A stretch of DNA of 20,003 nucleotides. It comes from a virus. The notes under the pieces are model-generated. The model made no database searches. It saw only the letters and a list, made by a program, of their open reading frames with translations, and was not told the origin of the DNA. Made by a program: the position numbers and the translations under genes. This document shows positions 4,904 through 20,003 of the stretch, in pieces; position 1 is the first letter of the stretch, and each line of letters starts with the position of its first letter. The stretch spans positions 1-20,003 of the IMG/VR virus record IMGVR_UViG_3300031227_000569, one strand, 5' to 3'.

Positions 4904-5610
4904 TTCGCACAGATGCCAGCATAGCAACAAGTGTGCATGTGACAGGGACATCCAATCCGCGCCTCGTCGTCATGTTGAAATCCTCTAACGACGAATGGGC
5001 AATGGAGGGGCAACTCTCGTTTACAAACCTTGGGGCTACATCTATCGACCAGATCGAGGACGAGTTGGTGAGGCGGCTGCATGGCAGATGTACATTATCT
5101 ATCGGTCCAGCCCACACTTTTGATATAATGAATAACACAAAGATTGGACCTGCTTTGTCTTCTTTCTGTAAGGACTGGGGACTTACCACAAAAGATATGG
5201 CAAGGAAGTCAGGATTGGAAGAGAGTACCGTAAAAGATTGCATGGGCAAGGATGGGAAAACGCGCAGCCACACGAGGCGTGTTATTGCTTCGACGATTGA
5301 CAGGATAGACCAGCACCCAACAATCGGAGAGTATCTTCGCCATAGAAGGCTTCAGGCTGGCTATCACTCGAAGGTGGCTGCGCGTTTTCTTGACACAGAC
5401 GAGGAAACAGTACTGATGTGGGAACGGGATGAAGATGAGGTTCCTGTACGTTGCCGTTGGGTTATGATGAACATGTATGGTATAGCCAATGACGTATGGA
5501 ACAATACAACCCCAACCGTTAGGGATATCATGGCCCCCGTAACAGGGACATCCCCTATGGAATGGGGTGCTGGATCAATGGAGAAACTGGAAGCAACAGA
5601 AGGAACATAA
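4900..5610 (+). CDS. DNA-binding protein with two helix-turn-helix regions
   Basis: ATG 4900 overlaps the epimerase stop (ATGA), giving 236 residues; the longer frame from 4681 lies entirely in the epimerase gene and is rejected. Residues 1-75 look like a small alpha/beta domain. Two XRE/Cro-like HTH regions follow. The first contains LTTKDMARKSGLEESTV (about 93-109). The second contains IGEYLRHRRLQAGYHSKVA and ETVLMWERDEDEVP (about 146-185). The tandem arrangement suggests a DNA-binding regulator or packaging-related recognition protein. Its position directly before the portal, where small terminase is often found, makes a terminase-small-like role conceivable, but there is no direct sequence support for that. 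Confidence 0.6.
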   Translation: MIRTDASIATSVHVTGTSNPRLVVMLKSSNDEWAMEGQLSFTNLGATSIDQIEDELVRRLHGRCTLSIGPAHTFDIMNNTKIGPALSSFCKDWGLTTKDMARKSGLEESTVKDCMGKDGKTRSHTRRVIASTIDRIDQHPTIGEYLRHRRLQAGYHSKVAARFLDTDEETVLMWERDEDEVPVRCRWVMMNMYGIANDVWNNTTPTVRDIMAPVTGTSPMEWGAGSMEKLEATEGT

Positions 5611-5611
5611 A

Positions 5612-8104
5612 ATGGCAAGACGAAGAGTGGCGAAGCGTCAGGAAAATCAACAGCCAGTAGAAAAGGCGTTTAGTGAAAACGTAGGCCCGCTAATCGTCGC
5701 CAACTTGTTTGGCTCTGGCGAGATACCTATATCAACGGGCTACCTGGCGTATGCAGGGGACTACCAGCAACTTGCGTGGGTATATGCCTCTGTGTTTGCT
5801 CTCGCCACTGGGTCTGCCATTGTGCCTTGGAACATCTGGAAGGGTAAGCCAGGAGAGTCGGACAAGCTTGAATACGAGAGCGAGCAGGTTCAGTTGTTTG
5901 AGCACCCGAACCCCGATATGACCTGGTTTGACCTGCTCGAAGCTACGATGACGTTCCTTGAGTTGCAGGGGGACGAGTACTGGGAAGTAGGTAGGAACAA
6001 AACAGGCACGTCGAAGCCAAAAGCGTTGTACCCACTTCGGCCCAATAGGCTCACCATCATCCCGACGAAGGATGGAAAGGAAGTCCACACATTCAGGTTT
6101 AAGATGTCCCCATATGCTAAAAACAAGGTAGACTTTCCTGCGAAGGACATCATCCATTATCTCTACTTCAACCCCCTGGACGATTGGTATGGGCAGTCCA
6201 CATTGAGCGCAGCCGCTCAGGCGTGCAGAAGCGAGCGATACACAGTTTCGTACAACCAGGGTTTCTTCAAGCGTGATGCAACACCCGCTGGCTATTTGCA
6301 TACCGACAATCCGATGAAGCGTGAACAGGCTGAGGAGATTGCAAAAAAGTGGAGCAGAAACCTTGCCGGTGTCAACCAGTCCCACAAGACCGTTGTTCTT
6401 CCTTCTGGGCTTAAGTACACGCCTATTGGCATCACACCCCAGGACATGCAGTTCCTTAAGCAGCGTGAATACAACCGTGAGGAGATTCTGAGCGTGTTCG
6501 GTGTGCCTCCTGTCAAGGTGGGGCTAACTGCGGATGCAAAATACTGCCTGCCTCCAGACGCGAGGGTGTGGGCTTCAGATGGCCCAACTAGGATAAAAGA
6601 TGTAACAGTTGGGCAGAAAGTATGGTCTTTTGTAGACAATAAGCTGGAACTTCGGGACGTGAAGTGGTCCGGGTCTAGAGGAAGAAAGCCCCTCTTAGAG
6701 ATCAGAACCAAGAATAGAACAATTCTGGCATCACCTAATCACCCATTCCTTGTCAGAAAAAATGGGAATCGTCAGATTTCCAAACCAACAGTTGAGTGGA
6801 AAGTGGCAAGTGAGTTGGAAGTTGGTTCTTTGGTAACTCAGCCAAAGTTCCTCCCAGATATTGGAAATACTGCTGCGCCAGACGGCGAAGAGATTACAGA
6901 GAGTATGGCACAGTTTTTGGGAGCAATCATTGGAGATGGAACTGTAGACAGTAGAGAAATTCGCTTGGCTGTTGAGAAAGAAAGTGAGCTTGGACGTTAT
7001 TATTCAATGCTTGCTCAAGGTTTGTTTAGGCAGACCAATGGAAGCTTTGTGAATGAAGGAAGTGGAAAGTCTTTTGGTTTAAGGTTCTCCTCGGTTCCAG
7101 CAACAAAGCAACTGTGCAGTTGGGGCTTTTGTGGAAGGCTGAAGTTTGGCGAAAAAGATAAGCGCATCCCTGGATGGATTTTTGGTCTATCCAGAAGCCT
7201 TCGGTTGGCCTTTTTGGCAGGGCTAATAGACACAGATGGGCACATTGATAGTAGGGGTGTGCTAACAATCGGTTCTTGCAGCAAAGAGTTAGCGTACGAC
7301 TATCGTGATCTTTTTGTTTCTGTGGGAATCCAATGTAGCAACTTGTTTTTTCATAGTGTAAGCGCATCAGTAATAGCAAAGAGTCTCCCAAACCAGAATT
7401 TTAGCAAGGAAAGCTATGATTTTTGTACAGTCGCTTGCTCGTCAGCTTTCAAGCTTGCTGAGGTGCCTTTTGCCGACACCCGTTACCGGAATCGTGTTGC
7501 AAATAATCTGCACAGATTCAAGCCTGATGGGATGGATGCACAAGCAGTCGGCCTCGACGACTGTCTTGGGTTCTATACCGTGTTGGAAATAAAGGATGCT
7601 GGAGAGTCAGAAGTTTACGACATTGAAGTTGAGGATGGTCATAGTTTTGTGGCTGATGGTTTTGTTGTCCACAACTCTAACTACCAGCTTCAGGAAGCTG
7701 CTTTCTACAGGGACACCCTCCAGCCCAAACTGATCAAGATAGCAGGCAAGTTGACCGCATTCCTACGAAGGGAATGGGGCGGGACGTTGACGTTTGAGTT
7801 CGACATGTCGCAGTTCCTCGTAGCTGACAAAGATGCAGAGATCAACCAAATGTACAAGGAGTTCTCGATGGGCGCCCTTACGCCTAACCAGGTCATCGCA
7901 GAGACGAAGCGTGGCGAAGCCTACGGTGATGAAGGTGATGAGCACTACGTTCATACAGCGTTCATCCAGGTTGGTGCCGCTGCTGTTGCTTCAGGCGAGC
8001 GGCAGGCTGCTGCCGTTGTAGAGGAAACGAAGCAGGAGATGGAAAAAGTAAGAACGGAAATAAAGGCACTGATGGATTCTGACAATAAGGTGGAGGACGA
8101 ATAG
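5612..8104 (+). CDS. HK97-type portal protein containing an intein
   Basis: The precursor has 830 residues from ATG 5612, with AAGGA (5600-5604) 7 bases upstream. Without the intein (residues 312-688) it has 453 residues, normal for the HK97 portal family. Portal features are the VYASVFALATGSAIVPW helix, the ALYPLRPNRLTI block, KDIIHYLYFNPLDDWYGQS, and FGVPPVKVG before the conserved region that joins as KY/SNYQLQEAAFYRDTLQP. The portal is the dodecameric ring at the capsid vertex through which DNA is packaged and to which the neck attaches. The C-terminus is helical and charged. The MuF-like gene follows 3 bases later. Identification is firm. The protein must splice to function, since the insertion falls in a conserved motif. 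Confidence 0.95.
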   Translation: MARRRVAKRQENQQPVEKAFSENVGPLIVANLFGSGEIPISTGYLAYAGDYQQLAWVYASVFALATGSAIVPWNIWKGKPGESDKLEYESEQVQLFEHPNPDMTWFDLLEATMTFLELQGDEYWEVGRNKTGTSKPKALYPLRPNRLTIIPTKDGKEVHTFRFKMSPYAKNKVDFPAKDIIHYLYFNPLDDWYGQSTLSAAAQACRSERYTVSYNQGFFKRDATPAGYLHTDNPMKREQAEEIAKKWSRNLAGVNQSHKTVVLPSGLKYTPIGITPQDMQFLKQREYNREEILSVFGVPPVKVGLTADAKYCLPPDARVWASDGPTRIKDVTVGQKVWSFVDNKLELRDVKWSGSRGRKPLLEIRTKNRTILASPNHPFLVRKNGNRQISKPTVEWKVASELEVGSLVTQPKFLPDIGNTAAPDGEEITESMAQFLGAIIGDGTVDSREIRLAVEKESELGRYYSMLAQGLFRQTNGSFVNEGSGKSFGLRFSSVPATKQLCSWGFCGRLKFGEKDKRIPGWIFGLSRSLRLAFLAGLIDTDGHIDSRGVLTIGSCSKELAYDYRDLFVSVGIQCSNLFFHSVSASVIAKSLPNQNFSKESYDFCTVACSSAFKLAEVPFADTRYRNRVANNLHRFKPDGMDAQAVGLDDCLGFYTVLEIKDAGESEVYDIEVEDGHSFVADGFVVHNSNYQLQEAAFYRDTLQPKLIKIAGKLTAFLRREWGGTLTFEFDMSQFLVADKDAEINQMYKEFSMGALTPNQVIAETKRGEAYGDEGDEHYVHTAFIQVGAAAVASGERQAAAVVEETKQEMEKVRTEIKALMDSDNKVEDE
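6545..7675 (+). mobile_element. Intein with LAGLIDADG homing endonuclease in the portal gene
   Basis: This in-frame insertion of 377 codons begins with Cys (CLPPDARVWASDG, block A) and ends in VVHN followed by Ser as the +1 residue. Block B is LASPNHPFL and block F is VYDIEVEDGHSFVADGF. The endonuclease has two LAGLIDADG motifs, FLGAIIGDG (Asp442 of the precursor) and FLAGLIDTDG (Asp542), both keeping the catalytic acidic residue, so it may be active. Base composition is more A/T-rich than the flanking extein, fitting later acquisition. Splicing boundaries are predicted from the conserved terminal residues and from restoration of the portal motif. Confidence 0.95.
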
Positions 8105-8107
8105 AAC

Positions 8108-10132
8108 GTGCCTGTTGCAACTAGAAACCTTAAAGCATTTCAGAGGAGGTTTGAGCGAGAAGTAGGCAAACAGTCTGCCTACTTCCGTAAGGAGTTCGAC
8201 AAGTGGGCATGGGTGATGAACAATGAGTACGAAAAGGTTCTTCGCCACATCCACCTGATCAAGAATGTAGAGAAGATGAGCCAGGGCGAGATGTTTGAGC
8301 GCCTTATGCCCTGGCTGGTCATCGCGGAAGTAGGAAGGAACATACTACGAGCCGCCGAACTGCATATGTTCCTGCGGGGTGCGGAACACGGTATGCAGAT
8401 TGCCGGACTAGGGTTTGCATTCGACGTGAATAATCCCCTGTTTGTGGAGGCCGCAAGGCTGCGTGCCGCTTCGCTGGTGAAATACGTATCTGAGGCTGCT
8501 CGTAAGAACTTGCACGATATGACGATGCAGGCACTCGATGCTGGTTGGAGCGTGGACACTTTGGCTGTTAAGATGCGTGGACACCTCACCGCGTTGCCCG
8601 TCAGCCAGAGGCGCATAATGCGTGAGGCGACAGAGAGGTTGGCGTCTGGTGCATCGCAGGGGAAAGTGGATGTTTGGGTTGGACGCGAGATGACGAGGAT
8701 GACGAACTACAGGGCGTTCATGATAGCCCGAACAGAGTCCAGTGCTGCGATGAATGACGGCGCTTTGATGGGATACAAGCAAGCAGGGGTGAAAATGGTA
8801 GAGTGGCTTGCTCAGTTTGACGCATGTGAAGTGTGTTCCTCGTTTGCTGGGGAACTGTTTACAGTAGAAGAATCATTTGGTTTAATGCCGGAACATCCAA
8901 ATTGTTTCACAAGCCCCGATACGCCAATATATACTGCTGATGGGTGGAAGCCAATCGCTAAAGTCGAGGTTGGTGATTTGGCATTGACCCACAAGGGAAG
9001 ATTCCGGAAAGTGACTCAGCTACATCGTGTTGAAAAGCAACTGCCAGAGATTGTTTCCTTAAGGGCGGGTGGAGGAAAGTATGGGCACGCAGAACTGCGT
9101 GGGATAACATCGAACCATCCTGTTCTGATAGATGGACGATGGACAGAAGTGGGGAAGGCGAAGCCGGGACAGAAGATTCACATGCTTGCTAAGAAGTGCG
9201 CTGGGTGTGAAAAGATGATACCTTACTTTCGTAAGTTTTGTTCACGGTCGTGTACTAGCAAGGCGATAACGAAAAAGCAATGGGCTGATCCGAATCATCG
9301 TAAGAACGTTCTTCCTAAGTTGAAGAAGGGCAGAGAAAAGCTTAGTAGGATGATTAAGGATGGAATAATCGACACGCATCAACTTACACAGGCTGCTCAT
9401 GATGTGTTGAGAAAGAGAATAGAAGAAGGAACCCACCCACTCCAGTTGTGGGACAGAACCGGAGACAACAACCCATCCAAGAGGCCAGAAGTTAGACGAA
9501 AGATTAGGGAATCAAAGCTTGGCACCAAGAATCCAATGCACAAGTCTAAGCACTCGGATGAGTATTGGAACAAGGTTGCAAATCGAGTGCGGGATTACTA
9601 CAAGAAGCACCCAGAGAAGCATCCAAATGCGATACTTGCGAACAAGGCTCGTGTAAATGACTCTGCTAAGACAGGCATTGAGCAGATAATGGGGATCGCC
9701 CTCGAAGATTCCGGACTAAAGCCCGACTACAATCATCCAGTCGGAGGTTTGTGGATCGACTACGCTTTGGCTAACGACATGATTGCAATCGAGTGCGATG
9801 GAGAGTACTGGCATAAAGACAAGCAACGAGAGAAGAAACGGGATGAAAAGCTGTGCTCTTTGGGGTGGACTGTTCTTCATTTTACAGGAGCCCAGATAAA
9901 GAATAACGTGGATGCATGTGTGGAAAAGGTTCATAGGGTTTTGGCAAATCACAACGGCGAGTACGAGTTTGCCGACTTCCAGATAGAGGAAGTGAAAGTG
10001 TCCACACGTGGGAAACGCACAACCACGTATAACCTGTCAGTAGACGAAGACGAAAGTTACGTTGCAAAGGGATTCGTTGTTCATAATTGTTTATGCAGTT
10101 GGGCACCCCAGATTGGAACTGAACTGTTGTAG
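8108..10132 (+). CDS. MuF-like head morphogenesis protein containing an intein
   Basis: The precursor has 674 residues starting at GTG 8108, 3 bases after the portal stop. No strong ribosome site is visible, but the portal terminus supplies GGAGG near 8093-8097. The exteins are residues 1-265 and 661-674, giving a mature 279-residue protein. It is mostly helical, with MIARTESSAAMNDGALMGY and FDACEVCSSFAGELF leading to MPEHPN/CLCSW, the C-terminal signature of the phage Mu gpF/SPP1 gp7 family (usually HPNCRC). These proteins sit inside the procapsid near the portal and help assembly or DNA ejection. Only 14 residues follow the intein, so a failed splice would remove just the metal-ligand-like end. 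Identification is firm. Confidence 0.92.
   Translation: MPVATRNLKAFQRRFEREVGKQSAYFRKEFDKWAWVMNNEYEKVLRHIHLIKNVEKMSQGEMFERLMPWLVIAEVGRNILRAAELHMFLRGAEHGMQIAGLGFAFDVNNPLFVEAARLRAASLVKYVSEAARKNLHDMTMQALDAGWSVDTLAVKMRGHLTALPVSQRRIMREATERLASGASQGKVDVWVGREMTRMTNYRAFMIARTESSAAMNDGALMGYKQAGVKMVEWLAQFDACEVCSSFAGELFTVEESFGLMPEHPNCFTSPDTPIYTADGWKPIAKVEVGDLALTHKGRFRKVTQLHRVEKQLPEIVSLRAGGGKYGHAELRGITSNHPVLIDGRWTEVGKAKPGQKIHMLAKKCAGCEKMIPYFRKFCSRSCTSKAITKKQWADPNHRKNVLPKLKKGREKLSRMIKDGIIDTHQLTQAAHDVLRKRIEEGTHPLQLWDRTGDNNPSKRPEVRRKIRESKLGTKNPMHKSKHSDEYWNKVANRVRDYYKKHPEKHPNAILANKARVNDSAKTGIEQIMGIALEDSGLKPDYNHPVGGLWIDYALANDMIAIECDGEYWHKDKQREKKRDEKLCSLGWTVLHFTGAQIKNNVDACVEKVHRVLANHNGEYEFADFQIEEVKVSTRGKRTTTYNLSVDEDESYVAKGFVVHNCLCSWAPQIGTELL
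8903..10087 (+). mobile_element. Intein with zinc finger, NUMOD3-like and Vsr-like nuclease domains
   Basis: This 395-codon intein starts at Cys266 (CFTSPDTPIYTADG), has block B ITSNHPVLIDG and ends VVHN before Cys (+1), so Cys/Asn/Cys splicing residues are present. It has no LAGLIDADG motif. Instead it carries a Cys4 finger (C364, C367, C378, C382). Next come NUMOD3-like DNA-binding repeats (NNPSKRPEVRRKIRESKLG and NPMHKSKHSDEYW, about 454-490). Last is a Vsr/DUF559-like PD-(D/E)XK nuclease with WIDYAL (Asp551), IECDGEYWH (Glu562, Asp564, His569) and KRDEKL (Asp579). The site is the conserved HPN/C motif. Inteins with Vsr-like nucleases are known but uncommon compared with LAGLIDADG types. 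Confidence 0.93.
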
Positions 10133-14853: not shown

Positions 14854-15786
14854 ATGCCACGTAATGAAGGCTCTCGTCAGACTAACATTCAGTACGTCCA
14901 GCAGTTTCCGCATTTGCTGGAGATTCGTGACGGTGGACGACTTGAGATTTTCCCTGTTCAACTTCACGATGACTTTCTTGGCGACCAGATTCAGGATGAG
15001 TGGAACGTAACGGCAGATGGAACGGGCGGCGGTCTTGTTCGCGTTGCAGTGAATGGTATCTATGAACTGCGTACTGATGCCACGAACGACCATACCGTCG
15101 AACTGGCGCATGAAACGAACTGGCGTGCCGCTGACGAACAGACGACTGAGACGTATCCGAGTCGCCTTGTGTTCGAGGCAATTGTTGCTCCTGCTGCGAT
15201 CACAACCCTCAATTTCATGGCGGGCCTTACGGATCGTGTCAACTACCCTCCGGGGCATTTGGCATTTGAGAATCCGGATACTGGCAACGCTTTTGCGGTT
15301 GATGCTGTTGTCATTGCCTTCGATACGGATGGTGTGACGAACACCAACTTTACTGCGCTTGCCACCAACAACGGCACCGAACAGGTTCTTGACCTGGGTG
15401 TTGCTCCCGTTGCTGGTGCATACAACGCGCTGCGTATGGAGCTTGACGGCCTCGGCAATGCAGATTTCTTCATTGATGGCACGTATCGTGGCACGATTGC
15501 TACGGCTGTTGCCATCGCTCAGTTGCTCACCCCGTACTACGGTATCCAGACGCGGGCGGCCGCTGTTCGGAATATGGGCATCGACAATTGCCGTGTCTAC
15601 AAGCGGCGTAACTACACTGACCAATCGTTCACCGCGACGACCACGACTACCTCTAGCACGAGTTCGAGCACGTCTACGACTTCGAGTTCGACATCTACAA
15701 GTTCGACTACGTCGAGTTCGAGTAGCACGAGTTCGAGCACGTCCACTAGTTCCAGCACGTCTTCGTCCTCGTCCACTGCTCCTTAA
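14854..15786 (+). CDS. Putative capsid decoration protein: jelly-roll domain with Ser/Thr tail
   Basis: The product has 310 residues from ATG 14854, with a strong AAGGAGG (14839-14845) 8 bases upstream. Residues about 35-255 look like a LamG/concanavalin jelly roll. They start LHDDFLGDQIQDEWNVTADG and include FIDGTYRGTIATAVA and YYGIQTRAAAVRNMGIDNCRVY, where strands end near a final Cys-Arg-Val-Tyr. The last 50 residues are Ser/Thr only, apart from AP at the end. Its location between capsid and connector genes and its strong ribosome site suggest an abundant protein on the head. The fold resembles that of the LamG-like gene at 590. Glycan binding or glycosylation of the tail is possible but not shown. 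Confidence 0.75.
   Translation: MPRNEGSRQTNIQYVQQFPHLLEIRDGGRLEIFPVQLHDDFLGDQIQDEWNVTADGTGGGLVRVAVNGIYELRTDATNDHTVELAHETNWRAADEQTTETYPSRLVFEAIVAPAAITTLNFMAGLTDRVNYPPGHLAFENPDTGNAFAVDAVVIAFDTDGVTNTNFTALATNNGTEQVLDLGVAPVAGAYNALRMELDGLGNADFFIDGTYRGTIATAVAIAQLLTPYYGIQTRAAAVRNMGIDNCRVYKRRNYTDQSFTATTTTTSSTSSSTSTTSSSTSTSSTTSSSSSTSSSTSTSSSTSSSSSTAP
15637..15783 (+). repeat. Ser/Thr-coding low-complexity tract
   Basis: The 3' end of the decoration gene is built from related units such as AGTTCGAGCACG and TCCAGCACGTC, encoding about 49 Ser and Thr residues up to the C-terminus. Confidence 0.8.
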
Positions 15787-19398: not shown

Positions 19399-20003
19399 AT
19401 GAAAAAGGGAAGCAAACATACACCAGAAACAATAGCTCGAATGTCTGAAGCCCACAAAGGACATAAGCACACAGAAGAATCAAAAGCAAAGATGTCGATT
19501 GTCCAAAAAGGCAAGAAGGTTTCTCAGGAGGTGAGGGACAAAATAAGTCGTTCGCGTCGTGGAAAAGGAACTGGGCCTTTTTCTGAGGAGCACAAAGCTA
19601 AGTTATCTGCCTCAAACAAAGGAAAAAAGCGATCCAAAGAAACTTGCGCGAGAATATCTGCTGCTAAAAAAGGCTGCAACCTTGGGCGTAAGCATACACC
19701 AGAAACAAGAGCTAAAATGTCAGCAGCCCTCAAAGGAAAGCCTAGACCAAAAGGGTCTGCTGCTTTGATGGGACATAGCGTTTCGGAAGAAACACGTGCC
19801 AAGATATCGGAATCATTGAAGGGGCGGAAACTTTCTGCTGAACATAGGAAAAGTCTATCTGTTTCCAAGAAAGGAAAACCACGACCATATTTGGTGGGAC
19901 GAGAACATTCTCCTGAACACAAAGCTAGTATATCTGCCGCCCTAAAAGGCAGATTACGCCCTGGGATATCTGGACCAAAACATCCTAGATGGCTAGGAGG
20001 CAT
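19399..20003 (+). CDS. NUMOD3-repeat homing endonuclease, N-terminal part (3' end outside window)
   Basis: ATG 19399 follows the terminator stop directly and the frame stays open to the edge (201 codons). The visible protein is about nine NUMOD3 repeats, each a variant of [HS]-[ST]-x-E-x-[RK]-x-K-[MI]-S-x-[AS]-x-K-G (for example HTPETRAKMSAALKGK and VSEETRAKISESLKGRK). They are followed by GPKHPRWLGG, the usual lead-in to an HNH nuclease in these proteins. NUMOD3 helices bind DNA along the target. It is a free-standing selfish endonuclease, probably inserted between two tail genes. Base composition is A-rich compared with the neighbouring genes, fitting later arrival. Identification as a NUMOD3 protein is firm; the nuclease domain lies outside the window. 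Confidence 0.93.
   Translation, partial: MKKGSKHTPETIARMSEAHKGHKHTEESKAKMSIVQKGKKVSQEVRDKISRSRRGKGTGPFSEEHKAKLSASNKGKKRSKETCARISAAKKGCNLGRKHTPETRAKMSAALKGKPRPKGSAALMGHSVSEETRAKISESLKGRKLSAEHRKSLSVSKKGKPRPYLVGREHSPEHKASISAALKGRLRPGISGPKHPRWLGG

Follow-up and report, generated by a model that had tools for sequence, protein, structure and literature searches.

In-frame intein nucleases other than LAGLIDADG or HNH enzymes are little described, and the Vsr-like type is seldom seen in inteins. Work by Dassa and colleagues in 2009 is said to have tied Vsr-like homing endonucleases to the split-intein 'fractured genes' of phage-like DNA, in which a free-standing endonuclease gene lies between the intein halves (cited in PMC12350094 and PMC10448857). 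The EDxHD enzymes (I-Bth0305I, PDB 3R3P; phrog_559, phrog_3339) are an accepted homing endonuclease family (PMC3943268, PMC6083498). I-Bth0305I, their prototype, resides in a group I intron; VSR-type nucleases occur in Bacillus phage group I introns (PMC11878797), and distant relatives occur in group II introns of phages (PMC12350094). In 2004 a MuF-like protein from a Mu-like prophage of Methylococcus capsulatus was reported to contain an intein, and regulation of head assembly by its excision was proposed (PMC517821). MuF inteins are also found in Gordonia phages (Nordenberg, L012), at an insertion point identical to that described below (N|CRC). The M. capsulatus and Gordonia inteins resemble the present one in their host protein, but are without a recognisable in-frame nuclease.

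The element described here is best explained as a class-1 intein with an embedded EDxHD (Vsr-like) homing endonuclease, which would splice and home as set out below; we put the probability of this reading at roughly 0.8. The association of EDxHD nucleases with introns and with fractured split-intein genes is already known, and the in-frame fusion appears to be the new part. A literature search of partial coverage found no account of an EDxHD nuclease fused in frame within a contiguous intein, and an in-frame EDxHD intein specialised on MuF appears to be undescribed.

A contiguous intein in a minor head gene

The window, that is, the whole stretch of DNA analysed, is an entire IMG/VR virus record of 20,003 bases, linear and possibly a fragment. 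No Rfam families or tRNAs were found within it. Long Ser/Thr (TSSSS) low-complexity stretches lie near the C-terminal part of the proteins encoded at 260-574, 590-2251 and 14854-15786. Immediately 3' of the portal gene, a single continuous ORF on the plus strand (8108..10132, GTG start) encodes a 674-aa minor head protein of the MuF / SPP1 gp7 type, which shows the CxxC...HxxCxC motif in alignment and matches TIGR01641 (phageSPP1_gp7, 1.1e-7) and the PHROG minor head family phrog_115 (4.6e-17). The Phage_Mu_F, TIGR01641 and PHROG minor-head matches all end at residue 266. The 265-aa N-extein (8108..8902, plus strand), which ends ...CEVCSSFAGELF...LMPEHPN, is alignable to intein-less homologues; used alone as a query against viral contigs, it gave zero matches. 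The intein follows (8903..10087, plus strand), with 395 aa from C1 to N395, or protein residues 266-660. The C-extein CLCSWAPQIGTELL (10088..10129, plus strand) begins with the +1 residue, Cys661. The insertion point is HPN|C-L-C, and the spliced junction, HPNCLCSW, is that of the intein-less Pediococcus phage cIP1.

The splicing domain is divided into two halves. The N-terminal half (8903..9187, plus strand) contains Cys1 and T69-x-x-H72, all in invariant columns, and is modelled with pLDDT mostly above 90; the C-terminal half (9959..10087, plus strand) ends in GFVVHN. Profile matches are to Intein_splicing (3.9e-4) and intein_Cterm (3.7e-7). Across a 46-member alignment C1, T69, H72, C99, D286, E297, D299, H304 and N395 are invariant, and H394 is conserved in at least 90% of the relatives. 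An AlphaFold2 model built on 46 homologues (pLDDT 87.8, pTM 0.70), which replaces an earlier model from five sequences, has the Hint fold, and in Foldseek searches with the predicted structure this part matches the gp41-1, DnaB and DnaX inteins and hedgehog. The locus combines the features of a class-1 intein: Cys1, a block B TxxH, a penultimate His, a terminal Asn, a +1 Cys, the Hint fold and intein-less homologues. The evidence supports residues 266-660 as a complete, contiguous intein of this class, and the catalytic residues together with the intein-less homologues predict that it splices. The first-pass annotation had placed an intein with intact splicing ends at 8903-10087, in the HPN/C motif of MuF. 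Its coordinates proved exact (C266-N660, +1 Cys661), and the location is borne out by profile, structure and family evidence.

A split intein of the fractured-gene kind was considered and rejected: the ORF at 8108-10132 is continuous, with no separate halves and no nuclease gene between them. Both arrangements associate a Vsr-like homing endonuclease with an intein in phage-like DNA, but the MuF intein and its nuclease form one uninterrupted protein. No LAGLIDADG or HNH Pfam domain was matched in the insert. The adjacent portal gene (5609-8101) carries a second, unrelated intein at about residues 313-690, with a LAGLIDADG_3 match (2.5e-8), so that two head genes side by side each bear one intein, with nucleases of different types. 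LAGLIDADG inteins such as PI-SceI and this portal intein share with the MuF intein a splicing domain and a nested homing endonuclease, but their nuclease fold is unrelated to the EDxHD fold.

Finger, linker and nuclease

Within the intein the insert runs from a Cys4 finger through helical linkers to a Vsr-like nuclease. The finger, CAGC-(10)-CSRSC (9197..9253, plus strand), has its cysteines at residues 364, 367, 378 and 382, as first annotated. The four spaced cysteines are kept in 46 of 49 distinct relatives, and the DUF2116 treble-clef profile is matched by 14 of 46; a zinc finger or treble clef is predicted, which would bind zinc. The helical linker (9278..9484, plus strand) starts near a QWxDPxHRxN module conserved in the alignment consensus and includes predicted helices at 130-152 and 158-174 (intein numbering); we infer that it contacts DNA. 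NUMOD3-like repeats had also been claimed. What stands is a marginal stretch at 9485..9565 (plus strand, within NNPSKRPEVRRKIRESKLGTKNPMHKSKHS), with a Pfam E-value of 0.019-0.038 and a score of 14.4-15.3 bits against a cut-off of 20.4, seen in only four of 46 relatives when E-values up to 0.1 are counted. Elsewhere in the window, an ORF at 19399-20001 that runs past the contig end has about nine NUMOD3 repeats (4.6e-37) and probably encodes another homing endonuclease, the third in this DNA, with the nuclease portion falling outside the record.

The nuclease domain (9668..9958, plus strand) is of the EDxHD/Vsr-like PD-(D/E)XK type, with E525, D551, E562, D564 and H569. It matches DUF559 (2.7e-10 and 1.2e-10 in separate searches) and MTES_1575 (7.4e-10), and an hmmsearch profile search against the PDB returned 3hrl (1.1e-12), 3r3p (2.3e-12) and Vsr 1cw0 (1.9e-5). 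The Vsr Pfam profile matches 30 of the 46 relatives, and 1cw0 was among the Foldseek matches of the earlier five-sequence model. With the 46-homologue model, Foldseek finds the I-Bth0305I catalytic domain (3r3p) at a TM score by target of 0.83 and an rmsd of 2.2-2.4. The structure comparison proposed by the first-pass annotation was thus answered with a Vsr/EDxHD-like fold. Its active-site assignment needs one amendment: all the residues named lie where it placed them, and D551, E562, D564 and H569 (D286, E297, D299 and H304 in intein numbering) are the invariant ones, but D579 (D314) is not conserved among the 46 relatives, whereas E525 (E260) is, in at least 90% of them. At two of the positions aligned in this putative active site, 3r3p has Ala. 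Among predicted viral structures the hits were inteins and DUF559 proteins, none superposing over the full query (best TM by query 0.32).

The modelled fold supports the EDxHD homing endonucleases, and not the bacterial mismatch-repair Vsr enzymes, as the closest relatives of the nuclease. With I-Bth0305I it shares the catalytic-domain fold, an acidic/His core, multi-domain DNA-binding arms and, as its carrier, a self-splicing element of a phage gene. The two differ in that I-Bth0305I is intron-borne, whereas the MuF nuclease forms an in-frame part of an intein, behind the Cys4 finger.

Relatives, mobility and competing explanations

The suggestion that the three-part composition may mark a distinct variant needs recasting: the Cys4 and Vsr-like combination is not unique to this element, and defines a family of tens of distinct inteins. 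An IMG/VR profile scan detected relatives encoded in 207 stretches, and 79 loci were retained from these; removal of near-copies left 49 distinct inteins, the window counted in, and 47 of these have E-x-D-[GS]-x-x-[WY]-H. Such inteins are common in environmental phages. Almost all of the 49 come from viral contigs, and most occupy one of four cysteine positions in the metal motif of MuF; one full-length member is in a bacterial MAG (L093, Patescibacteria). In a tally that leaves out L073 and L089, the majority are inserted at HPx|C or its equivalent, four at CR|C (L044, L048, L058, L085), four at the second Cys of CxxC (L050, L061, L062, L071) and two at the first Cys (L084, L093). Outside MuF, L064 is inserted in a DnaE fusion, in what looks by eye like its uracil-DNA-glycosylase portion. 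The tree joins the window to L014 (98/91), and it recovers both the DI|C group (100/100) and the RT|C pair (99/96) as clades. The CR|C label requires four changes on separate branches, which points to repeated two-codon shifts relative to HPx|C. The family is a sequence-defined set of EDxHD enzymes whose natural target sites can be read from the host gene. One relative (L016:2992-4665) has two inteins in a single MuF gene: the one at HPY|C is of the Cys4-EDxHD kind, and the one at RT|C is a mini-intein with no nuclease.

Empty sites are common. Among the best 80 MuF relatives of intein-bearing alleles, a sample biased because the queries carry inteins, 70 are uninterrupted and eight carry an intein; the continuous HPNCxC motif that the first-pass annotation had sought is also present, as HPNCLCSW, in the cultured phages cIP1 and ATCC8014. 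A near-identical pair of alleles with and without the intein was sought and not found, the best uninterrupted allele being 63-65% identical to the query allele. At HPN in L175 a different insert was considered and rejected: it continues into MutS2-like sequence (by eye), matches no RNA family and is probably part of a chimeric contig. Nuclease-less mini-inteins occupy the same site in L077 (193 aa), L088 (173 aa) and L134 (140 aa). L077 and L088 retain the Cys4 finger; L134 has neither finger nor nuclease but keeps its splicing motifs, so the finger is dispensable for their persistence. As full-length inteins, minis with only the Cys4 finger and bare minis all occur at one protein position, gain and decay of an intein endonuclease become directly traceable. 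The nuclease domains of the relatives evolve under purifying selection, with dN/dS of 0.06-0.17 for the full-length pairs that gave an estimate (L022/L023, L035/L047, L069/L075/L081). Distances for Hint and nuclease are strongly correlated (r 0.78), and those for extein and intein clearly so (Mantel r 0.65-0.76), with exceptions such as L021/L045, where exteins are 20% and nucleases 58% identical. The correlations and their exceptions together suggest that the element moves as one piece, chiefly with or between related phages, and now and then makes a long jump.

The proposed cycle is as follows. The MuF precursor would be translated whole, and the Hint domain would excise itself and ligate HPN to CLC, so that the metal-binding motif CxxC...HPNCxC is re-formed, as the intact catalytic residues and intein-less homologues suggest. 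With its Cys4 finger and its helical or NUMOD-like arms, the freed intein would then bind an intein-less MuF gene carried by a co-infecting phage. By homology to I-Bth0305I, the nuclease would cut this gene, and repair from the intein-bearing copy would spread the element. Insertion at a residue that is hard for the phage to change may protect against imprecise loss, and the nuclease may decay later, leaving minis. The proposal draws on the splicing residues conserved in 46 relatives, the I-Bth0305I-like fold, the empty sites, the purifying selection, the relatives in unrelated exteins (L021/L045; the DnaE-UDG fusion) and the minis at the same site. Three points count against it. The extein-intein correlation implies much descent with the host gene or exchange among near relatives, the search for near-identical alleles with and without the intein yielded no pair, and the nuclease of the window copy could be inactive despite its intact residues.

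Other explanations fare less well. MuF proteins can bear toxin domains, and a weak PT-HINT (pretoxin) match would suit a polymorphic toxin with a Hint-processed C-terminal nuclease effector in place of an intein. However, the nuclease lies within the Hint domain and not downstream of it, the splicing residues (penultimate H, terminal N, +1 C) are all in place, and the C-extein completes HPNCLCSW just as uninterrupted homologues have it; this explanation is rejected as hardly credible. Very unlikely, too, is a domesticated intein whose splicing, perhaps made zinc- or redox-sensitive by the Cys4 finger, times assembly of the head protein while the nuclease is a passenger. Retention of the finger in L077 and L088 accords with such a role, as does the idea, put forward for the MuF intein of M. 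capsulatus (PMC517821), that excision regulates head assembly, but L134 has lost the finger and kept its splicing motifs, and the nuclease dN/dS in relatives is unlike that of a passenger. A further alternative makes the element chiefly an inter-phage weapon, whose main effect is to cut the MuF gene of a rival, its own spread being secondary. Phage homing nucleases are known to interfere with co-infecting phages, and intein-less MuF alleles are common enough to supply targets. Sequence, however, cannot separate a weapon from ordinary homing, and presence in unrelated exteins is what homing would be expected to produce; we regard this alternative as unlikely, and prefer the homing intein.

Nucleases in other frames of phage inteins

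With little more than even confidence, we lean towards a broader interpretation: that these inteins are a widespread, undescribed phage class with an in-frame Cys4-helical-EDxHD nuclease, specialised on the four MuF-motif cysteines, and that nucleases enter inteins as whole genes and fuse later. The second part is suggested by the occurrence of a similar module out of frame, and of a related nuclease in antisense, inside other phage inteins. Four family queries were searched against cultured phage records (tblastn, E 1e-3), and no single place covered at least 80% of any query. Partial matches led to the helicase inteins of Pseudomonas phage MR14, Corynebacterium phage phi673 and Vibrio phages. 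Like the MuF intein, these contain a Cys4 finger, an NNPM/NUMOD3-like stretch and a DUF559/EDxHD-type nuclease, but their nuclease is not fused to the intein: it is encoded by an ORF of 209-241 aa in the +1 frame relative to it. Such ORFs lie in the helicase inteins of MR14, phi673 and Vibrio phage 159E43-1b (L192:2279-3004, L193:2345-2983 and L194:2351-2980), where they carry no annotation. Identity among them is 41-48% in the hidden frame against 26-28% in the sense frame over the same interval. The Cys4/NNPM/DUF559 ORF is common to 40 phage records, its out-of-frame position having been checked in these three. The hidden copies suggest a route by which an intein captures an endonuclease gene, a step otherwise hard to observe. 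Two minor-head inteins have a nuclease-like ORF on the opposite strand: a strong DUF559 match (1.9e-10) in Vibrio phage 1.266.O (L195:1785-2522), and a weak MTES_1575-like match (0.0013) in Escherichia phage vB-Eco-KMB36 (L196:1988-3019).
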